Assembly (NCBI GenBank): GCA_023264975.1
Contig: JAHFUS010000010.1
Span: 1-63,386, forward strand
Direction: 5' to 3'
DNA: 63,386 bases
DNA from: Actinomycetes bacterium
GTDB taxonomy: Bacteria > Actinomycetota > Acidimicrobiia > Acidimicrobiales > GCA-2861595
Positions 4,081 to 40,520 of the stretch are shown here, in pieces. The first letter of the stretch is position 1, and the number at the start of each line of letters is the position of its first letter. The notes under the pieces were generated by a model, which worked only from the letters and a program-made list of their open reading frames with translations, was not told the origin of the DNA and searched no databases. A program made the position numbers and the translations under genes.

Positions 4081-4539
4081 ATGACGTCGGCCGTAGCCCG
4101 CGGCGTCGTGCTGGTCCTCGTCGGCCTGCTGCTCCTGGGCGGTGTAGCCGCCGTCGTGATCCACGAGGACAACGGCGACCGCTCGTCGACGGCCTCGGGC
4201 ACCACCACGACCACCGTGCCCGGCAACCCCGCGTCGACCTCGTCGTCGACCATGTTCACCCTGCCGGGGCCCACCGCCTCGTCGGTCACTTCCTCGACTA
4301 CGTCCGGCTCCACGGGGTCGTCGGCCACCACCTCCACGACGGGGGCGAGCGGCACCAGCTCGACCACTTCGTCCACCACGACCTTCGGGTCGTCCGTCGG
4401 GTCCTCCGGGTCGACTGCAGCCGGGGCAGGCGAGACGCTGGCCTACACGGGCGCCCCCTCGAACCTTGGCCTCGCCCTGCTCCTCCTCGCCGTGGCCTGG
4501 GGAATGCGGCGGTTCGTCGTCGCCTCCCGGCCCCGCTGA
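4081..4539 (+). CDS. Ser/Thr-rich surface protein with LAxTG (class E sortase) anchor
   Basis: 152 residues: an N-terminal hydrophobic signal (about 8-27), a low-complexity Ser/Thr/Gly stalk (33-115), then LAYTG at 120-124, a hydrophobic segment (128-140) and a basic tail (MRRFVVASRPR). LAxTG is the known recognition motif of class E sortases in high-GC actinobacteria. The stalk is probably glycosylated or simply a spacer. It has no folded domain. It follows the CpaB/CpaE-like pair on the same strand after about 100 bp. No sortase gene is in the window. Confidence 0.7.
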   Translation: MTSAVARGVVLVLVGLLLLGGVAAVVIHEDNGDRSSTASGTTTTTVPGNPASTSSSTMFTLPGPTASSVTSSTTSGSTGSSATTSTTGASGTSSTTSSTTTFGSSVGSSGSTAAGAGETLAYTGAPSNLGLALLLLAVAWGMRRFVVASRPR

Positions 4540-5683: not shown

Positions 5684-5996
5684 GGCCGGGCCGCATTCGC
5701 GGCGGCACGAGGGCCCGGATTCCCGGCCTGGCCCCGGCTCGAGCCGTGCGGCCGGCGGGCGGGGCGCAGCGACGGCCGGGCCTTGCCCAGCGGCGTCAGG
5801 GTGCCCGCCTTCGGAGCGGCGGGTAGAGCTCGACGGGGTTCTCGAGCACCATGGCGCTCGATGATGTCGACCTGACCGGACGACAGCTCGGCCGACCGCC
5901 ACACCGCCGGCGATCGGGTGGGCCCCTTCCCGTTCCGGGTACGGGAACCGACCCTCTCAGGCGTGAGTTTCCGTACCGAGAAGCGGGCTCGCCCGG
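5684..5996. other. Intergenic stretch without a recognisable gene
   Basis: About 310 bp between the convergent menC and acetyltransferase genes. No frame gives a recognisable protein, and I see no tRNA, clear terminator or repeat. A minus-strand 18-codon ORF (MVLENPVELY...) near 5850 is too short to support. Confidence 0.4.
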
Positions 5997-6431: not shown

Positions 6432-7960
6432 TCCGGGTCGGGCACCGGTTGGGGCGGCGGCGGCCCCACGTACCGGGCGCTCGGGCGCACGATGCGGTTG
6501 TCGGCCGCCTGCTCGAGCATGTTGGCGCACCACCCGATGACCCGGCTCGACGCGAAGGTCGGCGTGAACAGCTCGCGCGGCAGTCCGCAGCGGTCCATAA
6601 CGACGCCGGCGTAGAACTCCACGTTGGCGTACAGGTGGCGGCCCGGCTTCAGCTCGGCCAGCACGTCGACCACCGTCTTCTCGACCTGGGTGGCGAAGGC
6701 CGCCTTGTCGCCGCCGAGGCGCTGGGCCACGTCTCGAAGCATCAGCGAGCGAGGGTCGTCGGTCTTGTACACCCGGTGCCCGAAGCCCATGATCCGCTCG
6801 CCGTGCTCAACGGCGTTGCGGATCCACGCCTCGGTCTTGTCGGGCGTGCCGATGGCGTCGAGCATGTCGAGGGCCCGGCTGGGGGCACCGCCGTGGAGGG
6901 GCCCCGACAGGCTGCCGAGCGCAGCCACCACGGCGGACCCGAAGTCGGCGCCCGTTGACGTGACGACGCGGGCGGTGAACGTGGATGCGTTGAACCCGTG
7001 GTCGATGGTGGAGATCTGGTACTGCTCGACGGCCCGGGCGTGATCCGGGTCGGGCACCTCGCCGGTGAGCAGGTATAGGTAGTTGGCCGAGTAGCCCAGG
7101 TCGTCGCTCGGCTCCAGCGGGTCGAGGCCGTTGCGCAGGCGGTGCAGCGCCATGATCAGCGTGGGCGTGACGGCGCACAGCCGCAGGGCGTCGGTGCGCC
7201 TGGTGACGGCGTCGGTGTCCATGCTGGGGCGCAGGTCGAGCGACTGGGCCACGGCCGACATGGCCGTGCGCAGCGCGTCGAGCGGACCGGGATGCTCGCC
7301 CGCCTTTGCGATGTCGGGAAGCAGCGGCTTCACTGCATCCGGGATCGCCGCCATGGGCCGCACCTCGTCGAGGAACGCCTTGCGTTCGGTGGCGTCGGGC
7401 AGCTCGCCGCTGAAGAGCAGGTACCACACGTCCTCGAGCGACCGCTTCCCGGCCAGCTCCACGGCGTTGTAGTGGCGGTAGTGGTAGAAGCCCTCCTGGC
7501 CCCGCACGTCGCCCACCGTGGTCTCGGCGACGACAACGCCCTCGAGGCCCTTGGGCGCGTCGACCAGGCTGGGGTGGGCCATCGGCGCGATCTGGGCGAT
7601 TCCCACCAGGTCGCGCATGCTGACCATGCCGACCAGCTCGCCGTCGTCCACCACGGGGATGTGGCGGTAACCCCTCTCGGACAGGGTGTTCCACGCGTCC
7701 GCCACCTCGACGGCGGAGGTGATGGTGTACGGGTCGGCCGTCATCCACTCCCCGACCTTGGCGTTGGCATCGGCGCCCTCGGCGGCCAGGCGGACCAGGT
7801 CGCTCTCGGTGAGGATGCCGACGGGCTTGCCGCCGTCGACCACCACGACCGAGCCGACCTTGTGCTCGTGCATGTGGGTCGCTGCGTCCGACAGCAGTTC
7901 GGTGGCCTCGGCGGTGACCACGGGGCTGCTCATGATGTCGGCGACCGCACGCGTTGCCAT
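6428..7960 (-). CDS. Citrate (or 2-methylcitrate) synthase with N-terminal CBS-domain pair
   Basis: 510 residues. Two CBS domains (about 8-60 and 70-125; MSSPVVTAEATELLSDAA, GILTESDLV, HIPVVDDGELVGMVSMRDL) precede a complete citrate synthase core. Active-site histidines lie in GPLHGGAPSRAL and IMGFGHRVYK. The segment that usually carries the catalytic Asp (NVDFY) reads NVEFYAGVV. The enzyme condenses acetyl- or propionyl-CoA with oxaloacetate. CBS pairs bind adenosyl ligands (AMP, ATP, SAM), so I infer energy-state control built into the enzyme. It is coupled to a GNAT acetyltransferase by an ATGA overlap. Confidence 0.85.
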   Translation of the reverse strand: MATRAVADIMSSPVVTAEATELLSDAATHMHEHKVGSVVVVDGGKPVGILTESDLVRLAAEGADANAKVGEWMTADPYTITSAVEVADAWNTLSERGYRHIPVVDDGELVGMVSMRDLVGIAQIAPMAHPSLVDAPKGLEGVVVAETTVGDVRGQEGFYHYRHYNAVELAGKRSLEDVWYLLFSGELPDATERKAFLDEVRPMAAIPDAVKPLLPDIAKAGEHPGPLDALRTAMSAVAQSLDLRPSMDTDAVTRRTDALRLCAVTPTLIMALHRLRNGLDPLEPSDDLGYSANYLYLLTGEVPDPDHARAVEQYQISTIDHGFNASTFTARVVTSTGADFGSAVVAALGSLSGPLHGGAPSRALDMLDAIGTPDKTEAWIRNAVEHGERIMGFGHRVYKTDDPRSLMLRDVAQRLGGDKAAFATQVEKTVVDVLAELKPGRHLYANVEFYAGVVMDRCGLPRELFTPTFASSRVIGWCANMLEQAADNRIVRPSARYVGPPPPQPVPDPE

Positions 7961-9617: not shown

Positions 9618-9624
9618 GGGCGTG

Positions 9625-9669
9625 TTTCGAGTAAATAGGGTGTCGTTTTGACACCCTATTTACTCGAAA
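9625..9669. repeat. 45-bp perfect palindromic element, copy 1 (intergenic nei-lhr)
   Basis: Two perfect 20-bp arms (TTTCGAGTAAATAGGGTGTC and its complement) enclose a GTTTT loop. The arms are about 40% GC in a >70% GC genome. The same element, with a 17-bp perfect core, occurs inside dnaE2 at 34495-34539, and both copies are followed by AGTGG two to three bases later. There is no T-run after it in either direction, so a simple terminator is not the best explanation. I read it as a mobile palindromic element. Confidence 0.85.
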
Positions 9670-9673
9670 GTGG

Positions 9674-12600
9674 TCAGGCATAGCGGATGAGGCCCTTGGG
9701 GGTGGGGACGAAGCCGGCGGCGGCCAAGTGGGGGGCCAGCTCGGGGTCGGAGCGCTCGACGCTGAGGCGGGTGAGGCGGCCGTCGGTGAGCAGGGTGGTG
9801 ACGGCGGCCACCGCCTGGGCTTCCCACTCGCCGTCGTAGGGGCGCAGGGCGACGAGGGCCTTGCCGCCCTTCTCGACGTAGAGGGTGGCCAGGCCGTCGA
9901 GGAGGACGACGTAGGCGCCGGCCACCCGCCGGGGGCCGGTGACGGGCCAGGGCAGGGCCACGCCGTAGGCGTTGGCCGGGTCGGTGGTGGCCAGGACGAC
10001 GGCCGCCGGCGGCTCGCCCGTGCCCGCTGCGCCCCTCGACGAGCGCAGGCGGTCGACGGCGCCGGGCAGGGCGAACTGGGCGCCGCCGAGGCCGGATACG
10101 AAGTAGCCCCGCCGGGCCCGGCCGGACTCCTCCATGGCCCGCAGCACCGGGTACACGCCGGCGAACCCGCCGGGCACGCCCTCGCCCCGTGCCGCCTCCC
10201 GGGTGAGCACTCCGTGGCGCTCGAGGAGGGCGCCGGCCTGGGCGGCGACGGCCTCGGTGGGGCTGACGCCGCCCCGCTCCACCAGCGACCACCGGCCCTG
10301 GCCGCGGGGCGGGCCGAGCACGGTGAGGTTGCCCACACGGGGCCGGCCGCCGGCGCCGCCCCGCTTGGTGGCGGAGCCGCTGCGCCGCCTGCCGCCCTGC
10401 GTCGCCCGCACGGCGGCGAACGAGTCGTTGGTCACCTCGCCCGCCCACACCAGGTCCCACAGGGCGTCGAGGGTGGACACGTCGGTGGCGCCGCCCAGCT
10501 CGCGGAAGAAGCAGGCGCCCCGCGCCGCCAGGACGTCGCGGATGCGGTCGTGCTCGTCGCCCTCGGGCCGGTCGCCCACCGGCGCCGCCCGCGACAGGAC
10601 CGAGCCGCGCAGGTGCAGCGCCACCTTGCCGTCGTCGCGCCCGAGCGGGCCGGCGCCGACCCACATGACCTCGCCGGCGGCCAGCAGCTCGTCGAGGTAG
10701 CGGGGCGTGTAGCCCCGCACCCGGGCGGGCAGCACGTCGCGCTCGAGCACGCTGGCCGGGATGGCCACGCCCTGGAGCTGGGCCACCACTTCGAAGGTGC
10801 GGTCGGGCCCGCCGGCGTCGGCGCCCACGCCCTGCCACGCCGGCAGGAAGCGGGCAAGGGCGTCCTGCCCGGTGGGCTCGACCTCCTTGCGCAGGGCGGC
10901 CAGCGACCGCTGGCGCAGCATGCGCAGCACCTCGGCGTCGCACCACTCCCGCTCGGTGCCGCCGGGCCGGAACTCGCCCCGCAGGACGGTGTTGGCCCGG
11001 GCCAGCGCCGCCAGCTCGGCCCGAACCATCTCGTAGGGGACGCCGAAGCGGCCGGCCGGCTCGGCCGTCCGGAACGGGCCGTGGGTGCGGGCCCACCGGC
11101 GCACCAGTTGGGTGAGGGCGTCGGGCACCGGCTCCAGGAAGGCCTCGGGCACGCCGGGGGGCGTGGAAACACCGAGGGCGTCGCGGTACCGGCCGGCGTC
11201 CTCCGCTGCGATTAGGCGGGGCTCGCCGGCGATGCGCACCTCGACGGCGCGACGGTCCTTCACCAGCGCCGCCGCGAATGGCTTGCGGCAGCGGGCGTCC
11301 AGCTCGTCGGTCGACAGGTCGCCCAAGCGGCGCAGGAGGTCGTGGGCGGCGTCGGGCGTGGCCGCGTGGCGGGAGTCGTCCAGGGCCTGAAGCTCCGCTT
11401 CGAGCTGGGCCAGGGCGGCCGGGTTGATCAGCTCGCGCAGCTCGTCGGACCCGACCAGCTCGGCCAGCATGCGCCGGTCGAGGGTGAGGGCCTGGGCCCG
11501 GCGCTCGGCCAGGGGCGCGTCGCCCTCGTACATGAACGACGCCACGTAGGAAAAGGCCAGCGACGAGGCGAAGGGCGACGGGGTCGGCGTGTCGACGGCG
11601 ACCACCCGCACCCTGCGCGCCCGCAGGTCGGTCATGAGCGACACCAGGGCGGGCAGGTCGAACACGTCCCGGAGGCACTCCCGGTAGGTCTCCAGCAGGA
11701 TCGGGAACGAGCCGTAGTTCGACGCCACCGCCAGCAGGTCGGCGGCCCGCTGGCGCTGCTGCCAAAGGGGCGTGCGGGAACCGGGGCGACGGCGGGGCAG
11801 CAGCAGCGCCCGGGCCGCGTTCTCTCTGAAGCGGGAGGCGAACAGGGCGGACGACCCGACCTCGCCCACCACCAGCTCCTCGATCTCCTCGGGGTCGAGC
11901 ACCACCGCGTCGGCCGGCGGCGCCTCGTCGGCCTCGGGGAGGCGGACGACGATGCCGTCGTCCGACCACACGGCGTGGACCTCGACGTCGAGGCGCCGGC
12001 GGATCTTGGCCTCGATGGCCAGCGCCCACGGGGCGTGGACGCGGGCGCCGAAGGGCGACAGCACGCAGATGCGCCAATCGCCCAGCTCGTCGCGGAAGCG
12101 CTCCACCACCACTTGACGGTCGGTGGGCAGGACGCCGCCGGTCGCCTCGCGCTCCTCGTCGAGGTAGGCGCGCAGGTTGCGCACGGCCAGGGGGTCGAGG
12201 TGGCAGTCGGCGGCCAGGCGCTCGTCGGACCAGCTGTCCACCTCGCGCACGAAGGCGCCGAGGGCGCGGCCCAATTCGTAGGGGCGGCCGATCTGGTCGC
12301 CGTGCCAGAAGGGCATCTTCCCGGGCTCGCCCGGGGCGGGGGTGACGACCACCCGGTCCCGGCTGATCTCCTGGATGCGCCACGTGGTGGCGCCGAGCAC
12401 GAACGTCTCCCCGACCCGGCTCTCGTAGACCATCTCCTCGTCCAGCTCGCCCACCCGGGAGCCCTCGGGGGTGAACACGCCGAACAGGCCCCGGTCGGGG
12501 ATGGTGCCGCCGCTGGTGACGGCGAGCATCTTGGCGCCGGGCCTGGCGCGCAACGTGCCATCGACCCGGTCCCACACCAGGCGGGGGCGGAGCTCGGCGA

Positions 12601-31816: not shown

Positions 31817-33568
31817 CTACGGGCGGCGGGCCGGGTGGACCTGGATCGGGCCCTCTATCAGGACGGGGCGGGGCGGGGCGCCGTCCGCCTCGAACCACGG
31901 GTCGCCCTGCTCCCCCCCGCTGCGCAGCTTCCACTTCCGCGGCACGCGGTCGACCTTCACCGGGTAGACCGTGAGCAGGCCGTCCCCGCCGATGTGCAGG
32001 CGAAGGAAGTTCTTGCGGTCCTCGATGCGCTGGGCGGCGAACAACTCGTTGGCGTTGCAGTTGAAGAACCGGTCGGCCACGTAGAGGTAGCCGGCCATCA
32101 CCACGCTGCCGATCAGCCCGCCGGCGGCGCCGACCAGGACCAGGTAGCCGAACAGGTACGGCAGCCCGTGGAGGCCGTCGAGCACCTGGTCGACGAGGCG
32201 CACCACCGCGACCACAGCGACCAGGTGGGCCAGCGCATGCGCCCCGCCGAGCGGGTACTTCTTGGCCTTGGACGTGGCCTTGGTGAACCCGGCCATGCCC
32301 AGGACGAGCACGGCGGTGACGACCAGGGCGACGGGGCTGCGGGCCAGGCCGGAGGCGATGCCCGTGACCGACAGGTCGTGCATGACGGCCGAGAAGCTCT
32401 GGCCGGGTCGGCGCAGCGCCGACTGCACGGTCCACGCGTAGAGCACGTAGACGCCGGCCAGCAGCGCCACGAAGCTCGGGTTCTTCCGGCCCAGGGTCAC
32501 AGCGCCCAAAGCGATGTGCCGCGACTCGGGCTTGGTGGGATAGCAGATCTTCAGGTCGAACTGGGCCGGCGGGTCGGACCGGAGCCCACGATGGCGTGAC
32601 CCGGCTGGTGGCAGCACGAGGTGCTCGGGCAGGTGATGCGTGTCGGAGAGGAAGGCGCCGCCCCCGCCCGCCGTGATGAGCTGGGCGTCGCCGCCCGTCT
32701 CCTGGTAGCGGGCGTAGTGGTGGGTGTCGCCGGTGAGGTTGACCCGGACCTCGGCTCCGAGCTTTTTGATCACGTTCCGGTGGAAGTAGTCGAGCGTGTC
32801 GTAGGCGTCGGGCTTTTCGGCGTTGGCGTTGACCCAATTGGGCTTGGCCGAGCACAGGATGATCGAGTCCCCCGGTCGGACCCGCTCGCCCACCACCTCC
32901 TGGAAGTAGTGGAGCTGGGGTTCGTCGATGTAGGTGTCGAACTGGATGTCGATGCCCCAGAGCCACCAGCCATGGGGGAGGGCGGCGGCGAAGTAGCTGC
33001 GCCGCTGGCCGGTGGTCCAGCCGCCGATCCAGCTGCCCTGGCAGAACACCCGGGTGAAGGCGGTGAGCCCGTCGTACCAGTCGTGGTTGCCGGGGAGGGC
33101 GAGGATCTGCGGGTGGTCGGTGGGCGTGTAGGGGAGGGCGGCCCGGTAGGGCCCGGTGAGCCGGTCCCGGTAGCCGTCGATGTCGGCCGTTGGGTACACC
33201 TGGTCGCCGCCCATGACCAGGAGACGTCCGCGCTGGGTGGGCGCGCTCGGGCCGCCGGCGCCGCCGGCCAGGTCGAGTTTCTCCTCGGCCAGCAGTGTGG
33301 CGAGGGCGTAGGTGGGGTTGAACCCGTCACCCAGGTCCGACACGTAGTCGAACCACAGCTCCTGGCGGTCGGACAGGTCGCACGGCGCAGCAGCCCGACC
33401 CTCCTGGAACTCGCGCTTGTCGGCGTAGGTGCCGAAGATGCCCGACAGGACGACCCGCAGGCCGGTGCTCACCAGCTGCGACGGGGACAGCCACCGGGTC
33501 ATCTCCTGCTTGGTGAACCCGGTGTCCTCCGGCCGGTCGCCGGCCGGACGGGGAGGGCAGTCGGACAT
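31817..33568 (-). CDS. Membrane-anchored calcineurin-like metallophosphoesterase
   Basis: 583 residues from ATG at 33568. The first ~330 residues are a phosphoesterase with LLVMGGDQVYP, LALPGNHDWYDG and NLTGDTHHYARY; an extra Trp-rich loop (WIGGWTTGQRRSYF) is present. Four to five membrane helices follow (about 360-490), then a soluble tail that ends in PIQVHPARRP. This phosphoesterase-plus-membrane layout is known as a conserved actinobacterial/proteobacterial hypothetical. The start overlaps the stop of an upstream 25-codon ORF (TGATG). Confidence 0.75.
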   Translation of the reverse strand: MSDCPPRPAGDRPEDTGFTKQEMTRWLSPSQLVSTGLRVVLSGIFGTYADKREFQEGRAAAPCDLSDRQELWFDYVSDLGDGFNPTYALATLLAEEKLDLAGGAGGPSAPTQRGRLLVMGGDQVYPTADIDGYRDRLTGPYRAALPYTPTDHPQILALPGNHDWYDGLTAFTRVFCQGSWIGGWTTGQRRSYFAAALPHGWWLWGIDIQFDTYIDEPQLHYFQEVVGERVRPGDSIILCSAKPNWVNANAEKPDAYDTLDYFHRNVIKKLGAEVRVNLTGDTHHYARYQETGGDAQLITAGGGGAFLSDTHHLPEHLVLPPAGSRHRGLRSDPPAQFDLKICYPTKPESRHIALGAVTLGRKNPSFVALLAGVYVLYAWTVQSALRRPGQSFSAVMHDLSVTGIASGLARSPVALVVTAVLVLGMAGFTKATSKAKKYPLGGAHALAHLVAVVAVVRLVDQVLDGLHGLPYLFGYLVLVGAAGGLIGSVVMAGYLYVADRFFNCNANELFAAQRIEDRKNFLRLHIGGDGLLTVYPVKVDRVPRKWKLRSGGEQGDPWFEADGAPPRPVLIEGPIQVHPARRP

Positions 33569-33645
33569 CAGCGTGCTCCCCCCGCTGCCACCGCGTGGTC
33601 TTCGAGGATCTCCTCGGTGAACCGGAGGTTGTCTGGGGTGCCCAT
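33568..33645 (-). CDS. 25-residue upstream ORF coupled to the phosphoesterase gene
   Basis: MGTPDNLRFTEEILEDHAVA then AGGAR, stop. Its ATG follows a strong GGCGAGGAGCCGGCC site with ideal spacing, and its TGA overlaps the next ATG as TGATG, the signature of translational coupling. It may be a leader peptide controlling the downstream gene, or a genuine micro-protein. No homology can be judged by eye. Confidence 0.5.
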   Translation of the reverse strand: MGTPDNLRFTEEILEDHAVAAGGAR

Positions 33646-33747
33646 GGCCGGCTCCTCGCCTCGGAGACGTCCGGCCGGGTTCGAGCGTGGTGACCGGTGC
33701 GTCGCTTCCGACGGGAAGGATGACGCTCGCGGCGACCGGCGTCAACG

Positions 33748-36700
33748 TCAGCGGAAGTCCCGTGAGCGGGAGGGCAGGGCGAGGTCGAGGGGCTCGATGC
33801 GGTCGGCCACGATGTTGATCGCGCCCTCCACCCGCTCGAGCGTGCCTCGCACGAGAAGGGCAGGGGACGATCGTGCGACCCGGCGGTGACGGGCCCACAC
33901 GCCGGGCGAGCAGATGACGTTCACCAGGCCGGTCTCGTCCTCCAGGTTCACGAACGTGATGCCCGAGGCGGTGGCCGGGCGCTGGCGGTGGGTGACGACC
34001 CCGCCGACGAGCACCCGGGAACCGGGTTCGGCGTCGAACAGGCCGGCCGCCGTGACCACACCCATCTCGTCAAGGGCGGGGCGGGCGAACTCGGTGGGCG
34101 ACGAGTCGGGCGACATCCCCAGGGCCCACAGGTCCGACGCCGCCACCTCCCGGGGCGTCATCGCCGGCAGGGGCGGGGCGGACTCCCCCGTCACCACGCC
34201 GGCCAGCCGCCCGGGGCGGGACTGGCTCACCGCTCCCGCTGCCCACAGCGCCTCCCGCCGGCCGAGCGACCGACCCCCTTCCGTACCGAGAACACCTGGG
34301 GCGGGCGCCGGGGCGTCGAAGCAGCCGAAGGCGCCGGCCGTGGCGAGCGCCTCCACCTGGGGCCCGGTGAGGGCGCACCGGCGCACCACGTCCTCCATGC
34401 CCGCATAGGGGCGGCCGGCGTCGATGCGCCCGGCCAGGTCCTTGCCGATGGTGCGAACGCTCCCGATGCCCAGCCGGACCGCCGGCCGCTCGCCTTTCGA
34501 GTAAATAGGGTGTCGTTTTGACACCCTATTTACTCGGGAGTGGGGTTCGAGGGTGGCCTTGGCGGCGCTGGCGTTGAGGTCGGGGCCGAGGATGGTGACG
34601 CCGTGGCGGCGGGCGTCGGCCGTGAGTGTCTGCGGCGACCAGAAGCCCATGGGCTGGGCGTTGAGCAGGGCGGCGCAGAAGGCGGCCGGTTCGTGGTGCT
34701 TGAGCCAGGCGCTGGCGTAGACGAGGTAGGCGAAGCTCACCGAGTGGCTCTCGGGGAAGCCGAAGTTGGCAAAGGCGACCAACTTGTCGTGGATGGCGTC
34801 GGCCGCTTCGCCGGTGATGCCGCGCTCGGCCATGCCGGCGTAGAGCCGGCCCTTGAGCGCCTCCATGCGGGCCTTGCTGCGCTTGGAGCCCATGGCCTGT
34901 CGCAGCTGGTCGGCGTCGGCGGCGGAGAAGCCGGCCACGTCGATGGCCATCTGCATGAGCTGCTCCTGGAACAGGGGCACGCCCAGCGTCTTCTTCAGCG
35001 ACGGCTCCAACAATGGATGCAGGTACGTGACCGGTTCTTCGCCGTTGCGGCGGCGGATGTAGGGGTGGACGGAGCCGCCCTGGATGGGGCCGGGGCGGAT
35101 GAGGGCGACCTCCACCACCAGGTCGTAGAAATGTCGGGGCTTGAGGCGGGGCAGGGTGGCCATCTGGGCCCTGCTCTCCACCTGGAACACGCCCACCGAG
35201 TCGGCCCGGCAGAGCATGTCGTAGACCTCGTCCTCCTGGGGCAGGGTGGCCAGGTCGACCTGCACCCCGCTGTAGCCGGCGATCAGGTCGACCGCTTCGT
35301 GTATGGCGGTGAGCATGCCAAGTCCCAGCAGGTCGAACTTCACCAGGCCCACCGCCGCACAGTCGTCCTTGTCCCACTGGAGCACGGTGCGCCCGGGCAT
35401 GCGCCCCCACTCCACCGGCACCACCTCCACTACCGGGCGGTCGCAGATCACCATGCCGCCCGAGTGGATGCCGAGGTGGCGCGGGAAACCCTCGACCTGG
35501 GCGGCCAGGTCCATCACCGGCCGGGGGATGTCGTGGTCCCTGGTGTGCGACAGCGGTCCCCAGCCGTCGACCTGCTTGGACCACGCGTCCTGCTGGCCCG
35601 GTGAGTGGCCGAGGGCCTTGGCCATGTCGCGCACGGCCGAGCGGGGGCGGTAGGTGATGACGTTGGCCACCTGGGCCGCCCGCTCGCGCCCATAGCGCTC
35701 GTAGACGTACTGGATGGCCTCCTCCCGGCGATCGGACTCGATGTCGACGTCGATGTCGGGGGGGCCGTCGCGGGCGGGGGACAGGAAGCGCTCGAACAGC
35801 AGCCCGAGGGCGACGGCGTCGGCGTTGGTGATGCCGAGGGCGTAGCAGACCGCGCTGTTGGCGGCGCTGCCCCGGCCCTGGCAGTAGATGTTCGCCCTGC
35901 GGCAGAACTCGACGATGTCCCACACGATCAGGAAGTAGCCGGCGAAGCCGAGCTGCTCGATGAGGTCGAGCTCGTGGGCGATCTGGCGGTAGGCGCCGGG
36001 GACCCGCTCCTTGTCGGGCGGGCCGTAGCGGCGGGCGGCGCCCTCGGCCGTCAGGTGGCGCAGCCAGGTCATCTCGGTGTGGCCCGGGGGGACGGGCCAG
36101 TCGGGCAGGCGGGGGGCCACCAGACGCAGGTCGAAGGCACACTCGCCGGCGACGGCGGCCGCCCGTTCGACGATGCCGGGGTAACGGGCCAGGCGGGCCG
36201 CCATCTCGGCGCCCGAGCGCAGGTGGGCGGCGGCGCTCGGGGGCAGCCAGCCGTCGATCTCGTCGAGTGACCGTCTCGCCCGCACCGCCGCCAGTGCGGT
36301 GGCGAGGGGACGCCGTGCGGGGGTGGCGTAATGGACGTTGTTGGTGGCCACCAGGTCGACGCCGGCCCTGAGGGCGAGGGTGGCCAGGGCGTCGTTGCGG
36401 GCCGAGTCGAGGGGGTCGCCATGGTCCCAGAGCTCAACCGCCACGTTGTCCCGGCCGAAACAGGTGACAAGGTCGGCGAGGGCCCGGGCCGCAGCCCGCG
36501 GCCCCTCGTCGACCAGGGCCTTGGGCACCGCACCCTTGCGGCAGCCGGTGAGCACCAGCCAGCGCCCGCCGGCGGCCTGGCACAGAGCCGACATGGAGAA
36601 CAGCGGGCGGCCCTTCTCCTTGCCCGCCAACTGGGCGTCGCTGATGACCCGGCACAGGCGGGCGTAGCCCTCGGCGTCGCGGGCCAGCACGACCAGGTGG

Positions 36701-37134
36701 GTGCCCTCAGGGTCGGGAACCCCGTTCTGGGGCTTGGTGAGGCCGACGCTCAGCTCGGCGCCGAAGACGGTGGGCACGCCGACGGCGGCGGCCGCCTCGG
36801 CGAAGCGCACCACGCCGTACATGCCGTCGTGGTCGGTGAGGGCGAGGGCCGAAAGGCCGAGGCGGGCCGCCTCCTCCACCAGCTCCTCGGGGTGCGACGC
36901 CCCGTCGAGGAAGCTGAAGTTGGAGTGGCAGTGGAGTTCGGCGTACGGGACGGCGCCGGTCGTGGCGCGCGCCGACGGCTCGAACGGCTGGCGCTTGCGC
37001 GACCACGCCGGGCTGTCGCCGCCGTTGGCGACCGGGGGGACCGGGTCGGGCCGCCCCGTCCCGTCGGTCGGCACCGGCGTCGCCATCCGCCGGTGCAGCT
37101 CGGACCACGGGATCGGCGGGTTGCGCCAGCCCAC
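33748..37134 (-). CDS. dnaE2: Error-prone DNA polymerase III alpha subunit DnaE2, with in-frame palindromic insertion
   Basis: 1128 residues from GTG (MGWRNPPIPWSELHRRM), slightly longer than usual. The PHP domain (ELHCHSNFSFLDGAS) is followed by the polymerase core with catalytic PDIDVDIESDRREE, then the helix-hairpin-helix and OB domains, and the typical end SRDFR. DnaE2 is the translesion polymerase of the ImuA'-ImuB-DnaE2 mutasome. Residues about 866-880 (RVNRVSKRHPIYSK) are encoded by a palindromic element that also occurs elsewhere in the window; the frame is kept. It lies 206 bp after imuB. Confidence 0.92.
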   Translation of the reverse strand: MGWRNPPIPWSELHRRMATPVPTDGTGRPDPVPPVANGGDSPAWSRKRQPFEPSARATTGAVPYAELHCHSNFSFLDGASHPEELVEEAARLGLSALALTDHDGMYGVVRFAEAAAAVGVPTVFGAELSVGLTKPQNGVPDPEGTHLVVLARDAEGYARLCRVISDAQLAGKEKGRPLFSMSALCQAAGGRWLVLTGCRKGAVPKALVDEGPRAAARALADLVTCFGRDNVAVELWDHGDPLDSARNDALATLALRAGVDLVATNNVHYATPARRPLATALAAVRARRSLDEIDGWLPPSAAAHLRSGAEMAARLARYPGIVERAAAVAGECAFDLRLVAPRLPDWPVPPGHTEMTWLRHLTAEGAARRYGPPDKERVPGAYRQIAHELDLIEQLGFAGYFLIVWDIVEFCRRANIYCQGRGSAANSAVCYALGITNADAVALGLLFERFLSPARDGPPDIDVDIESDRREEAIQYVYERYGRERAAQVANVITYRPRSAVRDMAKALGHSPGQQDAWSKQVDGWGPLSHTRDHDIPRPVMDLAAQVEGFPRHLGIHSGGMVICDRPVVEVVPVEWGRMPGRTVLQWDKDDCAAVGLVKFDLLGLGMLTAIHEAVDLIAGYSGVQVDLATLPQEDEVYDMLCRADSVGVFQVESRAQMATLPRLKPRHFYDLVVEVALIRPGPIQGGSVHPYIRRRNGEEPVTYLHPLLEPSLKKTLGVPLFQEQLMQMAIDVAGFSAADADQLRQAMGSKRSKARMEALKGRLYAGMAERGITGEAADAIHDKLVAFANFGFPESHSVSFAYLVYASAWLKHHEPAAFCAALLNAQPMGFWSPQTLTADARRHGVTILGPDLNASAAKATLEPHSRVNRVSKRHPIYSKGERPAVRLGIGSVRTIGKDLAGRIDAGRPYAGMEDVVRRCALTGPQVEALATAGAFGCFDAPAPAPGVLGTEGGRSLGRREALWAAGAVSQSRPGRLAGVVTGESAPPLPAMTPREVAASDLWALGMSPDSSPTEFARPALDEMGVVTAAGLFDAEPGSRVLVGGVVTHRQRPATASGITFVNLEDETGLVNVICSPGVWARHRRVARSSPALLVRGTLERVEGAINIVADRIEPLDLALPSRSRDFR
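34495..34539. repeat. Palindromic element, copy 2, in frame inside dnaE2
   Basis: Same sequence as the intergenic copy at 9625-9669: the left arm TTTCGAGTAAATAGGGTGTC is identical, with the same GTTTT loop and a right arm differing only in the last three bases (GGG/AAA side). The core arms of 17 bp pair perfectly. On the coding strand it reads RVNRVSKRHPIYS. It lies in a loop between LEPHS and KGERPAVRLGIG, where DnaE2 proteins normally have only a short connection. Confidence 0.85.
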
Positions 37135-37339
37135 CGTCCCTCACCGCCCCGGTCCGGGCGGGACCACCGGTTGGCGGCGGCACCAGGGCCCGGAATCCGG
37201 GCGCTGACGCCGGCGCATGGGACCGGCAGGCGCCGTGCCCGCCGGTGGGAGCGGTGCGCACCCGAGGGAAGGCACCTGCGGCACCGGATGCCGTAGGGCG
37301 AGCAATGCTGCCGGCCCGTCGCGCGCCGGCCGGGCGGGG

Positions 37340-39001
37340 TCAGTCATAGGACGCCTCCGCCCACCAGCGGCCGCCCTCGAGGGCGAGCAGCCAGGCCCTG
37401 TCGCCGGCGACGATCTGGAAGCGGGCCCGGCGGCGGTGGGCGGCAGTGTCCCACCAGCGCTCGTCGGCCGGCCAGGGACCGGCCCATCCGGTGACCGGCG
37501 CCCACCTGCCACCGTCGACCGACAGGCGGGCCGGCGCAGCGGTGACGGCTCCCCGCCCGGTGACGCCCACCGGCTCGCCCGACTGCGCCACCACCTCGGC
37601 CGCCAGCATGGGGGCGAACACGGTGGACGGCGAGGGCGGCGGCACCCGGCCGGGCCACGGGCGGTCGGCGGGGCGGTCGGGCTCGCGCACGTCACCCCAT
37701 GGCACCAGCGTGACCCGCTCGGCCGGGTGGCGGCCACCGCTGGGCACGGCCGTGACCACCGCCTCGGGGCCGAGCATGCCCTGCACCCGCGCCAGCGCCC
37801 GGGCGGCCCGGTCGCCGACCTCGGCCGAGCCGCCCCAGAAGCCGAGCTGGCGGCCGTCGTCGGGGACGACCTGATCGGGCACCAGGCGCAGCAACGAGAT
37901 GCCGCCGGTGGGGCGTTCGGCGCCGCCCGTCGTGTTCAACCAGCCGTCGAGCTGCCAGCGGGCCCGGTCGGCCATGGCCGCCGGGCCGAGGGCGCCGTCG
38001 GAGCGCCACAGCCGGGCCAGGTGCTCGCCGTGCTCGGTCTCGGCCTCGATGCACACGCGGGTGCAGGCCAGGCCCCGGGCGGTGAGGGTGCGGTGCAACT
38101 CGTCGGCCAGCGCCTTGGCCGCGAAGGCGGCGGCGTCGACCCGGACGGCGGGCGGGTCGAGCACGACCTGGACGGCGAAGTCGGGCGGCGGGTCGGTGCC
38201 GGCGAGGGGCCGCCCGTCGAGGCCGCGGGCCAGTCGGTGGGCGACGGCGCCGTCGGGGCCGAAGCGGGCCAGCACGTCGGTGCCGGGCAGTGCGGCGAAC
38301 GCCCCCAGCGTGCGCAGGCCGAGGCGCAGCAACAGGTTGGCCAGGTCGGGCCGGTCGAGGGCGGCGACCGGGAACGGCGCCAGGAAGACGGGCGACCCGC
38401 CCGGCGGGATGACCAGGCCGCGCCGGGCAGCCAGCCCGGCGGCGAACGCCCCGTCGGCGATTCCCACCCGGCACCCGGGGTCGGGCCGGCCGGCGCCGGA
38501 CGGGGGCGCCGACTCGGAACCGGCTGTGCCCCCGGCATCGCGTTCTGGGGGCGGAAATCGACCGCTGGTGGTCGATTTCTGCACCCAGAACGACGGGCTG
38601 CCAGCGATGGCCGAGGTGACGGCCTCGGTGACGCGGGCGGCGAGGGCGGTGTCGCCGCCGAAATAGCGGGACGGCCCCAGGGTGGCGACGGCGGCCACGC
38701 CCGGGCGGACGATCTCCACCCGTGGGGCGAAGGCGGCGACGGCCGTCGCCACGGGCTCGAAGGAGCGGGCGTCGCGGCCGGCGTCGTGCTCGAGGACCAG
38801 CAGCGCCGGGCAGCGGCCCTGCGCCTCCCGCCGGCGCAGCCCCCGCACCACCCCTTCCGCCCGTGCCCCGGCCGAGCACGCCACCACCCGGTTGGCGAAC
38901 ACCACGGCGGCCGGCGTGGAAGCCGGCACGCCGGCGGCCACGACGGACCAGTCGGGGACCCACGCCACCAGGGTCCTGGTGGCGGCGCCGGCGCTGACCA
39001 T
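37340..39001 (-). CDS. imuB: ImuB, Y-family polymerase-like mutasome adaptor
   Basis: About 553 residues from ATG at 39001 (GTG at 39007 is also in frame, but lies almost at the -10 box). It is a Y-family fold lacking the catalytic acidic DxD: LVAWVPDWSVVAAG replaces the usual DMDAFFA-type motif. Thumb helices, ARFGPDGAVAHRLARGLDG and a clamp-binding motif RQLGFWGG are present. ImuB links DnaE2 to the beta clamp and ImuA'. Residues about 136-154 (FWVQKSTTSGRFPPPERD) are encoded by a palindromic repeat inserted in frame. Confidence 0.85.
   Translation of the reverse strand: MVSAGAATRTLVAWVPDWSVVAAGVPASTPAAVVFANRVVACSAGARAEGVVRGLRRREAQGRCPALLVLEHDAGRDARSFEPVATAVAAFAPRVEIVRPGVAAVATLGPSRYFGGDTALAARVTEAVTSAIAGSPSFWVQKSTTSGRFPPPERDAGGTAGSESAPPSGAGRPDPGCRVGIADGAFAAGLAARRGLVIPPGGSPVFLAPFPVAALDRPDLANLLLRLGLRTLGAFAALPGTDVLARFGPDGAVAHRLARGLDGRPLAGTDPPPDFAVQVVLDPPAVRVDAAAFAAKALADELHRTLTARGLACTRVCIEAETEHGEHLARLWRSDGALGPAAMADRARWQLDGWLNTTGGAERPTGGISLLRLVPDQVVPDDGRQLGFWGGSAEVGDRAARALARVQGMLGPEAVVTAVPSGGRHPAERVTLVPWGDVREPDRPADRPWPGRVPPPSPSTVFAPMLAAEVVAQSGEPVGVTGRGAVTAAPARLSVDGGRWAPVTGWAGPWPADERWWDTAAHRRRARFQIVAGDRAWLLALEGGRWWAEASYD
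38541..38592. repeat. 52-bp imperfect palindrome in frame inside imuB
   Basis: Arms of 23 bp (CGTTCTGGG...AAATCGACC and its complement) match at 21 of 23 positions around a 6-base loop GCTGGT. Unlike the dnaE2 element it differs in sequence, so it is a second repeat family. It sits where ImuB proteins normally go from the helical region into VGIADGAFAAGLAA, and keeps the reading frame. Confidence 0.8.
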
Positions 39002-39008
39002 CGACACC

Positions 39009-39038
39009 AGTCTCGAACGTACGTTCGGGACTTGTCAA
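39009..39038 (-). promoter_or_regulatory. SOS promoter of imuB: -35, LexA box in spacer, -10
   Basis: Read on the minus strand: TTGACA (39038-39033), an 18-bp spacer, and GAGACT (39014-39009). The LexA box TCGAAC-GTAC-GTTCGG (39013-39028) fills the spacer. The expected start of transcription falls close to the ATG at 39001, so the message is probably leaderless. The box has one mismatch to the actinobacterial TCGAAC-N4-GTTCGA consensus. Confidence 0.85.
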
Positions 39039-39245
39039 CCCGCCGGGCGCGCTTTCCGCACATCTGGTGGGTGGTGCCACGCAGCCCAGACCGGATGCAC
39101 GGGCCGTCGGGTCGAGCATCGCCGAACCGCTCCAGCCTCGATCATGCTCACGCCGGCGTCCCGGTGGAGATCGTCTCCTCGGTAGCAGCGGCCTCGGCCA
39201 CGCAAGGGCGAAGGGGCACGACGATCCGGTGAGCGTGTTCAGTGG

Positions 39246-40520
39246 TCAGGTCGCGGGCGTCCACAGACGGTCAATGGGCACGACGTGGATTCGGTCCTCG
39301 TGAGTGTACGAGCGCTCACCGGTGTACAACACCGCACCGCCGATGAACTGGTCGCCAAGAGCGACACGGAGCTTGCGGAGGCCGCGTAGTTCACCTCCGA
39401 GAACTCGGCTTCCAGCCTTGACCTCGAACGCCACAACGTGACCGTCGTCGCGTTCCAGGACGATGTCCACCTCGTCGCCGTCGTGCGTCCGCCAGTGCCC
39501 ACAGCCGGACACGTTGTCCGACCATGACGCCTGCTTGAGTATCTCGCCGACGACAAAGGTCTCGAGCAGGTGGCCGAACTCTGTCAGCGCTGCCGGCTGC
39601 AGAGAGGCGAGCCGGTCGGAGCTCAGACGAAGCAGGCGAGCCGCGACCCCGGAGTCCACGAGATGGACCTTGGGCGCGGCGCCGGATCGGGCGTTCAGTG
39701 TCGTTCCCCAGGCCGAGAGCCGATGAACCAGGAAGACGGCCTCGAGGAGCTTCGTGTAGATGTCCGCCGTCTTCTGCTCGAGATCGACGGCGCGAGCAGC
39801 CGCTGCCACGTTGAGCACCTGGGCCGTCTGTCCCGCGAGGCGAGCGAGGAGTTGCGGGAGCTTGGCCCGCTGTCGCACCTTCGAAAGGTCGAGCAGGTCC
39901 CGTGCGATTGTCTGCTCGACGTAGTCGTCGAACCAACGGTTCCGGACAGCGCCCTCCGGGCGCTGCAGCGCCGCAGGGAAACCGCCGGCGACGACGCGGC
40001 GGATGTAGTCGGCGCGCGTCGTCGTAGACGCCGCCGAGGTCCCGAGAGAGGACGGCCGGACAAGGCAGCGCTCGACAAAGTCCTCCTTGACTCCAGCGAG
40101 CTCGCCCTGCGACAGCGGGTGGACCGTCAGCATGTGGAGTCGCCCGGTGAGGGCCTGCGCCGCCTGCGGCAGCGCTTCGTGGCGCGTCGACCCTGTGATG
40201 ATGAACCGGCCCGGCCGTTGCTCCTGGTTCAACTCGGCCTTGATCGCGTCGAGAATGACGGGCACGTGCTGGTACTCGTCGATGCACACCGGCGATGGGC
40301 CCTTGACGAAGGTCCTCGGGTCAGCTGCAACCGCGTCCCGGAGAGCGGGATCGTCCAAGTCGAGCACTGAGACGCCGGCTTCGGCCGCCAGGATGCGCAG
40401 TAACGTCGACTTGCCCACCGAACGGGGTCCCTGCAACCCGATGACCACTTCGACGGCAAGTCGGTCGCGAACAACGTCGAGTAGGCGTCGAGCAACCAAG
40501 TCTCGGGACAGCGCCGCCAC
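39246..40520 (-). CDS. AAA_14/DUF4143 ATPase with PD-(D/E)xK-like C-terminus
   Basis: 424 residues. Walker A is GLQGPRSVGKSTLL, Walker B PVCIDEYQHVP, sensor region FIITGSTRHEALPQ, and the C-terminal DUF4143 part shows GDEVDIVLERDDGHVVAFEVKAGS, the nuclease-like D...ExK arrangement. These proteins are common orphan ATPases of unknown role. Base composition is visibly lower in GC than its neighbours, and AT-rich DNA lies upstream (about 40560-40650). It splits imuA' from imuB, so it looks like an acquired cassette. Confidence 0.85.
   Translation of the reverse strand: MAALSRDLVARRLLDVVRDRLAVEVVIGLQGPRSVGKSTLLRILAAEAGVSVLDLDDPALRDAVAADPRTFVKGPSPVCIDEYQHVPVILDAIKAELNQEQRPGRFIITGSTRHEALPQAAQALTGRLHMLTVHPLSQGELAGVKEDFVERCLVRPSSLGTSAASTTTRADYIRRVVAGGFPAALQRPEGAVRNRWFDDYVEQTIARDLLDLSKVRQRAKLPQLLARLAGQTAQVLNVAAAARAVDLEQKTADIYTKLLEAVFLVHRLSAWGTTLNARSGAAPKVHLVDSGVAARLLRLSSDRLASLQPAALTEFGHLLETFVVGEILKQASWSDNVSGCGHWRTHDGDEVDIVLERDDGHVVAFEVKAGSRVLGGELRGLRKLRVALGDQFIGGAVLYTGERSYTHEDRIHVVPIDRLWTPAT

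Follow-up and report, generated by a model that had tools for sequence, protein, structure and literature searches.

REP-like palindromes read in frame within loops of ImuB and DnaE2 in Acidimicrobiia

Introduction

Palindromic repeats lying inside bacterial genes have been described before. The account of REPs by Di Nocera et al. 2013 (PMC3733652) includes intragenic copies. Genes of replication and repair, DnaE2 among them, hold many of these, and in recB two Xanthomonas species carry different REPs at roughly one position; flexible linkers are offered there as one explanation, and ImuB is not named in its treatment of intragenic REPs. The GTAG REPs, which are linked to RAYT, are presented in that paper as dispersed palindromes with stems of 5-13 bp beside the ends of convergent or unidirectional genes, with some copies in frame. 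The CGTC REPs are described in it without a dedicated transposase, with stems of 8-9 bp, head-to-head dimers and known intragenic copies. Rickettsia palindromic elements (RPE-1, RPE-4 and RPE-6, as related in PMC3733652) are in-frame palindromes that add peptides to unrelated proteins. REPINs (PMC3116915, PMC8049555), pairs of REPs that depend for their movement on a vertically inherited RAYT, form non-autonomous sequence populations with a master type in each genome. Acidimicrobium ferrooxidans is among the genomes tabulated by RepRanger (PMC12306157).

Here we describe a palindrome read in frame in imuB, in a 63,386-nucleotide stretch of an Acidimicrobiia genome (contig JAHFUS010000010.1, positions 1 to 63,386, referred to as the window), together with the repeat families to which it and a second palindrome, in the partner gene dnaE2, belong. 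Like GTAG REPs, these elements are dispersed palindromes beside the ends of convergent and co-directional genes, with some in-frame copies, but their stems reach 22-24 bp and they have neither the GTAG tag nor a Y1 transposase; the same stem length, and CGTC in only 3 of 30 copies, sets them apart from CGTC REPs. As in Rickettsia, peptides are added in frame to unrelated proteins, although the sequence and the phylum are others and the copies are mostly intergenic. The resemblance to REPINs lies in the non-autonomous populations with a master type per genome, and the difference in the absence of their RAYT.

Results

The imuB palindrome

The genomes compared are contig assemblies, that of the genome under study, G000 (3.8 Mb), being 98% complete. 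G003 is a congener and sister species, G001 represents another genus, G005 is a fellow member of the family and G018 comes from another family in the same order.

The palindrome at 38541-38592 spans 52 bases, with 23-bp arms complementary at 21 of 23 positions around a 6-nt loop (Table 1), exactly as an earlier sequence-only reading had it. The imuB frame runs through it as SFWVQKSTTSGRFPPPERD, residues 139-156 being FWVQKSTTSGRFPPPE(R). The sequence-only reading also held the element to differ from the one in dnaE2, so that two palindrome families had entered the same mutasome, and both statements stand: the imuB copy belongs to a family present at about 19 places in the genome (family A) and the dnaE2 copy, the element at 34498-34536, to a separate one present at 31 (family B). 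Pfam finds an impB/mucB/samB domain in the ImuB protein, and directly after the palindrome peptide comes a Gly/Ala-rich stretch that is likewise extra relative to ImuBs of relatives. The DNA of the palindrome folds with z = -9.6 on the + strand and -6.6 on the - strand, and none of 5 simulated 63-kb windows (third-order Markov) contained a palindrome of its score.

Table 1. Palindromes of the window and the two mutasome genes that contain them
Feature	Position	Strand	Remark
imuB, Y-family polymerase-like protein, 555 aa	37340..39007	-	palindrome = residues 139-156
Family-A palindrome, left arm in imuB	38541..38563	+	CGTTCTGGGGGCGGAAATCGACC
Loop, 6 nt, GCTGGT	38564..38569	.	identical loop and orientation in imuB of sister species G003
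Family-A palindrome, right arm in imuB	38570..38592	+	GGTCGATTTCTGCACCCAGAACG
dnaE2, error-prone DNA polymerase III alpha, imuB partner gene	33748..37134	-	
Family-B palindrome, in frame in dnaE2	34494..34540	.	residues about 867-879
Second family-B palindrome of the window, intergenic	9624..9670	.	5-8 bp from both flanking genes
Decayed family-A-like palindrome, intergenic	5932..5983	.	covariance model E = 0.002

Two palindrome families and their placement

A genome-wide search with the arms showed that the imuB palindrome is not unique: the core GAAATCGACC-N6-GGTCGATTTC occurs at 14 places in G000 with up to 3 mismatches, and the reversed control pattern at none. Aligned copies give the consensus gTTCTGGTACCGGAAATCGACC-GCYRGC-GGTCGATTTCCGGTACCAGAAc, with arms of 22-24 bp, a loop of 4-6 nt and the outer sequence GTTCTGG...CCAGAAC. 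Family A is free of stop codons in all six frames. Copy numbers of both families were taken from model searches. By covariance model, family A occupies 19 places on both strands of G000, plus one weak place, 14 in G003, about 28 in G001 and a few in other members of the family. An order-wide search at E 1e-5 also placed it in G018, G014, G010 and G027, but the remaining 49 genomes searched gave no copy. The palindrome pattern had no match in a collection of named genomes from which near genomes are possibly left out. As multiple similar palindromes, mostly intergenic and near gene ends, family A falls within REPs in the broad sense.

Family B, TTTCGAGTAAATAGGGTGTC-N5-GACACCCTATTTACTCGAAA, is distinct from family A and was found at 31 places in G000, 16 in G003 and about 27 in G018, and at none in G001, G005 or G014. 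It leaves only one frame open on the strand used in dnaE2.

With genes placed by a simple home-made gene caller based on codon usage, short gaps between convergent or co-directional neighbours hold most copies of either family, and the distance to a stop codon is often 5-40 bp. Family A lies next to housekeeping genes (dihydroorotase and carA, hflX, acpS, hemC/hemD, alanine racemase, glpX and others), and no transposase is found among 20 genes scanned beside its copies. By the same gene caller, imuB (A) and dnaE2 (B) hold the only clear intragenic copies of G000; two more are doubtful, the weak C74 and C133, whose ORF has poor support. That a genome of 3.8 Mb should have two intragenic copies, out of about 50, in the same gene pair of 5 kb through random placement is unlikely, on what is a post hoc reckoning.

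Several further features of these repeats were observed. Family B often overlaps a flanking gene and ends it, the TAA of GAGTAA serving as the stop codon of one or both neighbours (G000 C34, C45, C72, C74, C79, C98 and C102; L261-L276, L015-L024). At two places in G000, C136 (L103 2484-2551; GACTCCGACC...GGTCGGAGTC) and C34 (L020 1486-1552; CCTTTCCCG...CGGGAAAGG), the arms run about 10 bp into the flanking DNA, as if a copying step had overrun the element. Other Acidimicrobiia (L137, L141; G018) carry palindromes with GTTCTGG ends and different inner stems, and G018 holds relatives of both families with conserved outer ends and an inner stem of its own (L228 15544-15588; L228-L232). Perfect 40-bp inverted repeats at contig ends (L209 8-94, L219 15215-15301) are probably fold-back assembly artefacts.

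Spelling of orthologous copies

G000 and G003 share no fewer than five orthologous family-A sites, and two of these are found in G001 as well. Their spelling mostly tracks the genome rather than the site (TTCTGGTACC in G000, TTCTGGCAGC in G003, TTCTCGCACCAGG in G001), with both arms altered together. Orthologous copies differ at 7, 10 and 7 of 48 bases; the figures are 7.2, 7.3 and 8.4 for non-orthologous copies of the same genome pairs and 5-6 for copies inside one genome. Orthologous copies have thus been re-spelled in both arms in the dialect of their own genome, which implies concerted copying. The imuB pair of G000 and G003 is an exception: its two members differ at 5 bases, and the one in G000 stands apart from the other copies of that genome (mean of 9.8 differences). 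This pair fits one old insertion whose G000 copy was kept from changing by coding constraint, whereas the copy in G003 was updated. Across copies, 92% of arm pairs are Watson-Crick, and 68 doubly changed cells stand against a shuffle maximum of 32, a number inflated by the relatedness of the sequences. Such double changes could stem from copying between the arms without selection, and selection for hairpin function, instead of copying, could also be their source.

For four copies present in G003 only, the flanks were found in G000; the gaps between them have diverged, and one contains a degenerate palindrome. Among the relatives compared there is no clean pair of empty and filled sites with a target duplication, nor is such a duplication, of the kind expected for a MITE of a DDE transposase, evident in the flanks of the copies. 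With nucleotide identity to these relatives near 85%, the exact ends of the elements are blurred.

Loops of ImuB and DnaE2

Measured between the landmarks SRYFGGD and VGIADG...LAAR, the ImuB loop has 84 residues in both G000 and G003, 57 in G001, 43 in G005 and 42-56 in 73 ImuBs of named genomes; these ImuBs and those of other family members together span 42-62. The extra stretch consists of the palindrome and about 22 Gly/Ala-rich residues. It is common to G000 and its sister species, and the insert predates their split. Alignment of ImuB orthologues shows that the palindrome is not conserved beyond the genus; among the 73 other ImuBs it has a counterpart in one only, that of a distant Acidimicrobiia genome (L120, JAFBAD010000177.1), in which a differently spelled palindrome, TTCTGAAGGACGGGCCTGGTGC-GCA-GCACCAGGCCCGTCCTTCAGAA, lies in frame at the same loop. 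On a tree of 31 ImuBs, whose branches are well supported, a palindrome must have been gained twice, once in this genus and once, separately, in L120.

An AlphaFold2 model of ImuB (46-sequence alignment, mean pLDDT 82.8) falls below a pLDDT of 50 at residues 144-174, between a helix at 119-135 and a strand at 180-185; a sequence search of the PDB returned no ImuB relative. The insert thus shares with RPEs that it is in frame, missing from orthologues and placed in a tolerant loop. In the corresponding model of DnaE2, pLDDT drops below 50 at 867-880, in a turn between strands 861-863 and 885-887, and the family-B peptide lies within this turn. The suggestion of the sequence-only reading that such genes tolerate insertion in linker regions is borne out to the extent that both palindrome peptides occupy loops of such low predicted confidence.

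Four genomes have their DnaE2 insertion at one point, give or take a few bases (CTCGARCCC|): G000 and G003 carry family B there, while G001 carries family A and G005 a decayed family-A copy. Since the DnaE2 site holds A or B depending on the genome and the ImuB loop gained a palindrome twice, both loops are recurrent acceptors of differently spelled palindromes.

In the decayed dnaE2 copy of G005 (C12:44238-44287, L079) the junction is directly duplicated, with CTCGARCCCGTTCTG occurring twice, which may be a vestige of how the element was inserted. The mutasome of G001 contains two further palindrome families (L078 7595-7646, 8038-8086, 9754-9806), located in the N-terminal part of dnaE2, in the imuB|dnaE2 gap and in the imuA|imuB gap, and totals four palindromes in 13 kb. 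In a different genome (L163, JAKOVR010000206.1), three copies of another palindrome (CCTTGGGTGCGTAAGGG...) surround imuB, at 4338-4386, 7663-7711 and 9982-10026. Distance had suggested that palindromes of L150 and L163 lie inside dnaE2, which was ruled out as there is no dnaE2 match at these places.

Discussion

Our preferred reading, to which we assign a probability of about 0.72, is that the imuB feature is a copy of a dispersed REP-like hairpin which was inserted once into a disordered loop of ImuB and tolerated there, the family being spread and overwritten by a process that copies hairpins. Family-A elements would normally occupy short gaps beside gene ends, and a single copy would have entered imuB in the common ancestor of the G000 species and its sister, landing in the disordered loop between helix and strand. 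Because family A is free of stops in every frame, a copy that keeps the frame would add only an unstructured peptide of ~17 residues and would be tolerated; for the function of ImuB the insert is probably close to neutral. A family-B palindrome would likewise have settled in the strand-loop-strand turn of DnaE2. Overwriting might proceed by transposition onto old copies, by gene conversion or by template switching.

The sequence-only reading had allowed that the coincidence of two palindromes in one mutasome may be chance. Chance is unlikely here, given that the same ImuB and DnaE2 loops hold unrelated or re-spelled palindromes in other lineages too. For the imuB palindrome itself, the DNA is GC-rich and the neighbouring ImuB segment is low in complexity, as would suit a chance hairpin or the ordinary repetitive coding sequence of such a gene, but the simulations, the genome-wide copies against zero for the reversed control and the conserved spelling leave this account a probability close to nil, and the family search refutes it. 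The copies might instead be bidirectional intrinsic terminators, alike by accident, given that many lie 5-40 bp downstream of stop codons. Yet no T-run occurs in their flanks, copies are found within a likely operon (the dihydroorotase|carA gap) and inside imuB and dnaE2, and Rfam has no match in 33000-40000 of the window; we rejected this interpretation as highly improbable.

Placement, copy number and palindromic form are all REP-like, and Y1 transposases are present in some relatives of the order, as expected of a classical RAYT-driven family whose transposase was recently lost or is missing from the assemblies. This is very unlikely and was rejected: Y1_Tnp (PF01797, RAYT) is absent from G000, G001, G003, G010, G014, G018 and G027, although control genomes give matches; the GTAG tag is near the end of 0 of 30 copies, CGTC near that of 3 (TGTC and CCTC variants left out of the count); and the stems are about twice the known REP length. 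The copying enzyme is thus not an IS200/RAYT transposase detectable by Pfam. With RAYT mobilisation left without support by these results, we infer the spread by insertion, the overwriting by a copying process acting on the hairpin and, likewise, the mobility of the elements. A less remote alternative, though one we think rather unlikely, is that the hairpins are functional RNA or single-stranded DNA sites co-evolving with a species-specific binding factor, the imuB and dnaE2 copies regulating mutasome mRNA or its processing and selection keeping the arms matched and uniform. Strong pairing with compensatory changes, the retention of the same gene boundaries across genera and the hairpins that relatives also carry in the imuA|imuB and imuB|dnaE2 gaps would agree with such a role. 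Against it, presence differs between congeners, with G000 orthologous sites degenerate or without a clean palindrome, most relatives in the order are without family A, and selection alone would need many independent double changes to re-spell all copies.

Going beyond the insertion and copying of this one hairpin, we tentatively suggest that Acidimicrobiia may carry a RAYT-independent hairpin-copying system that inserts hairpins of ~50 bp and overwrites old ones, including a copy within a coding gene, with the ImuB and DnaE2 loops as recurrent targets. If so, orthologous copies across species and genera would have been re-spelled in each genome's own dialect.

Palindromes entering genes are already known from other bacteria, and with intragenic REPs and transposase-less CGTC REPs published, the imuB case is a variant within a known phenomenon. 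New are these repeat families themselves, long-stemmed and untagged hairpins of Acidimicrobiia, their entry into ImuB as well as DnaE2, the recurrent gains at one loop, and the concerted re-spelling, in which spelling shifts in step across each genome. This opens the direct question of what copies REP-like hairpins without RAYT, and whether mutagenesis genes merely tolerate such inserts or use them. In-frame palindromic inserts in repair genes are now known also from Acidimicrobiia and from ImuB, where separate gains occurred at a single loop, and dispersed hairpins are seen to stay at orthologous sites even as their spelling changes concertedly, with no detectable RAYT.
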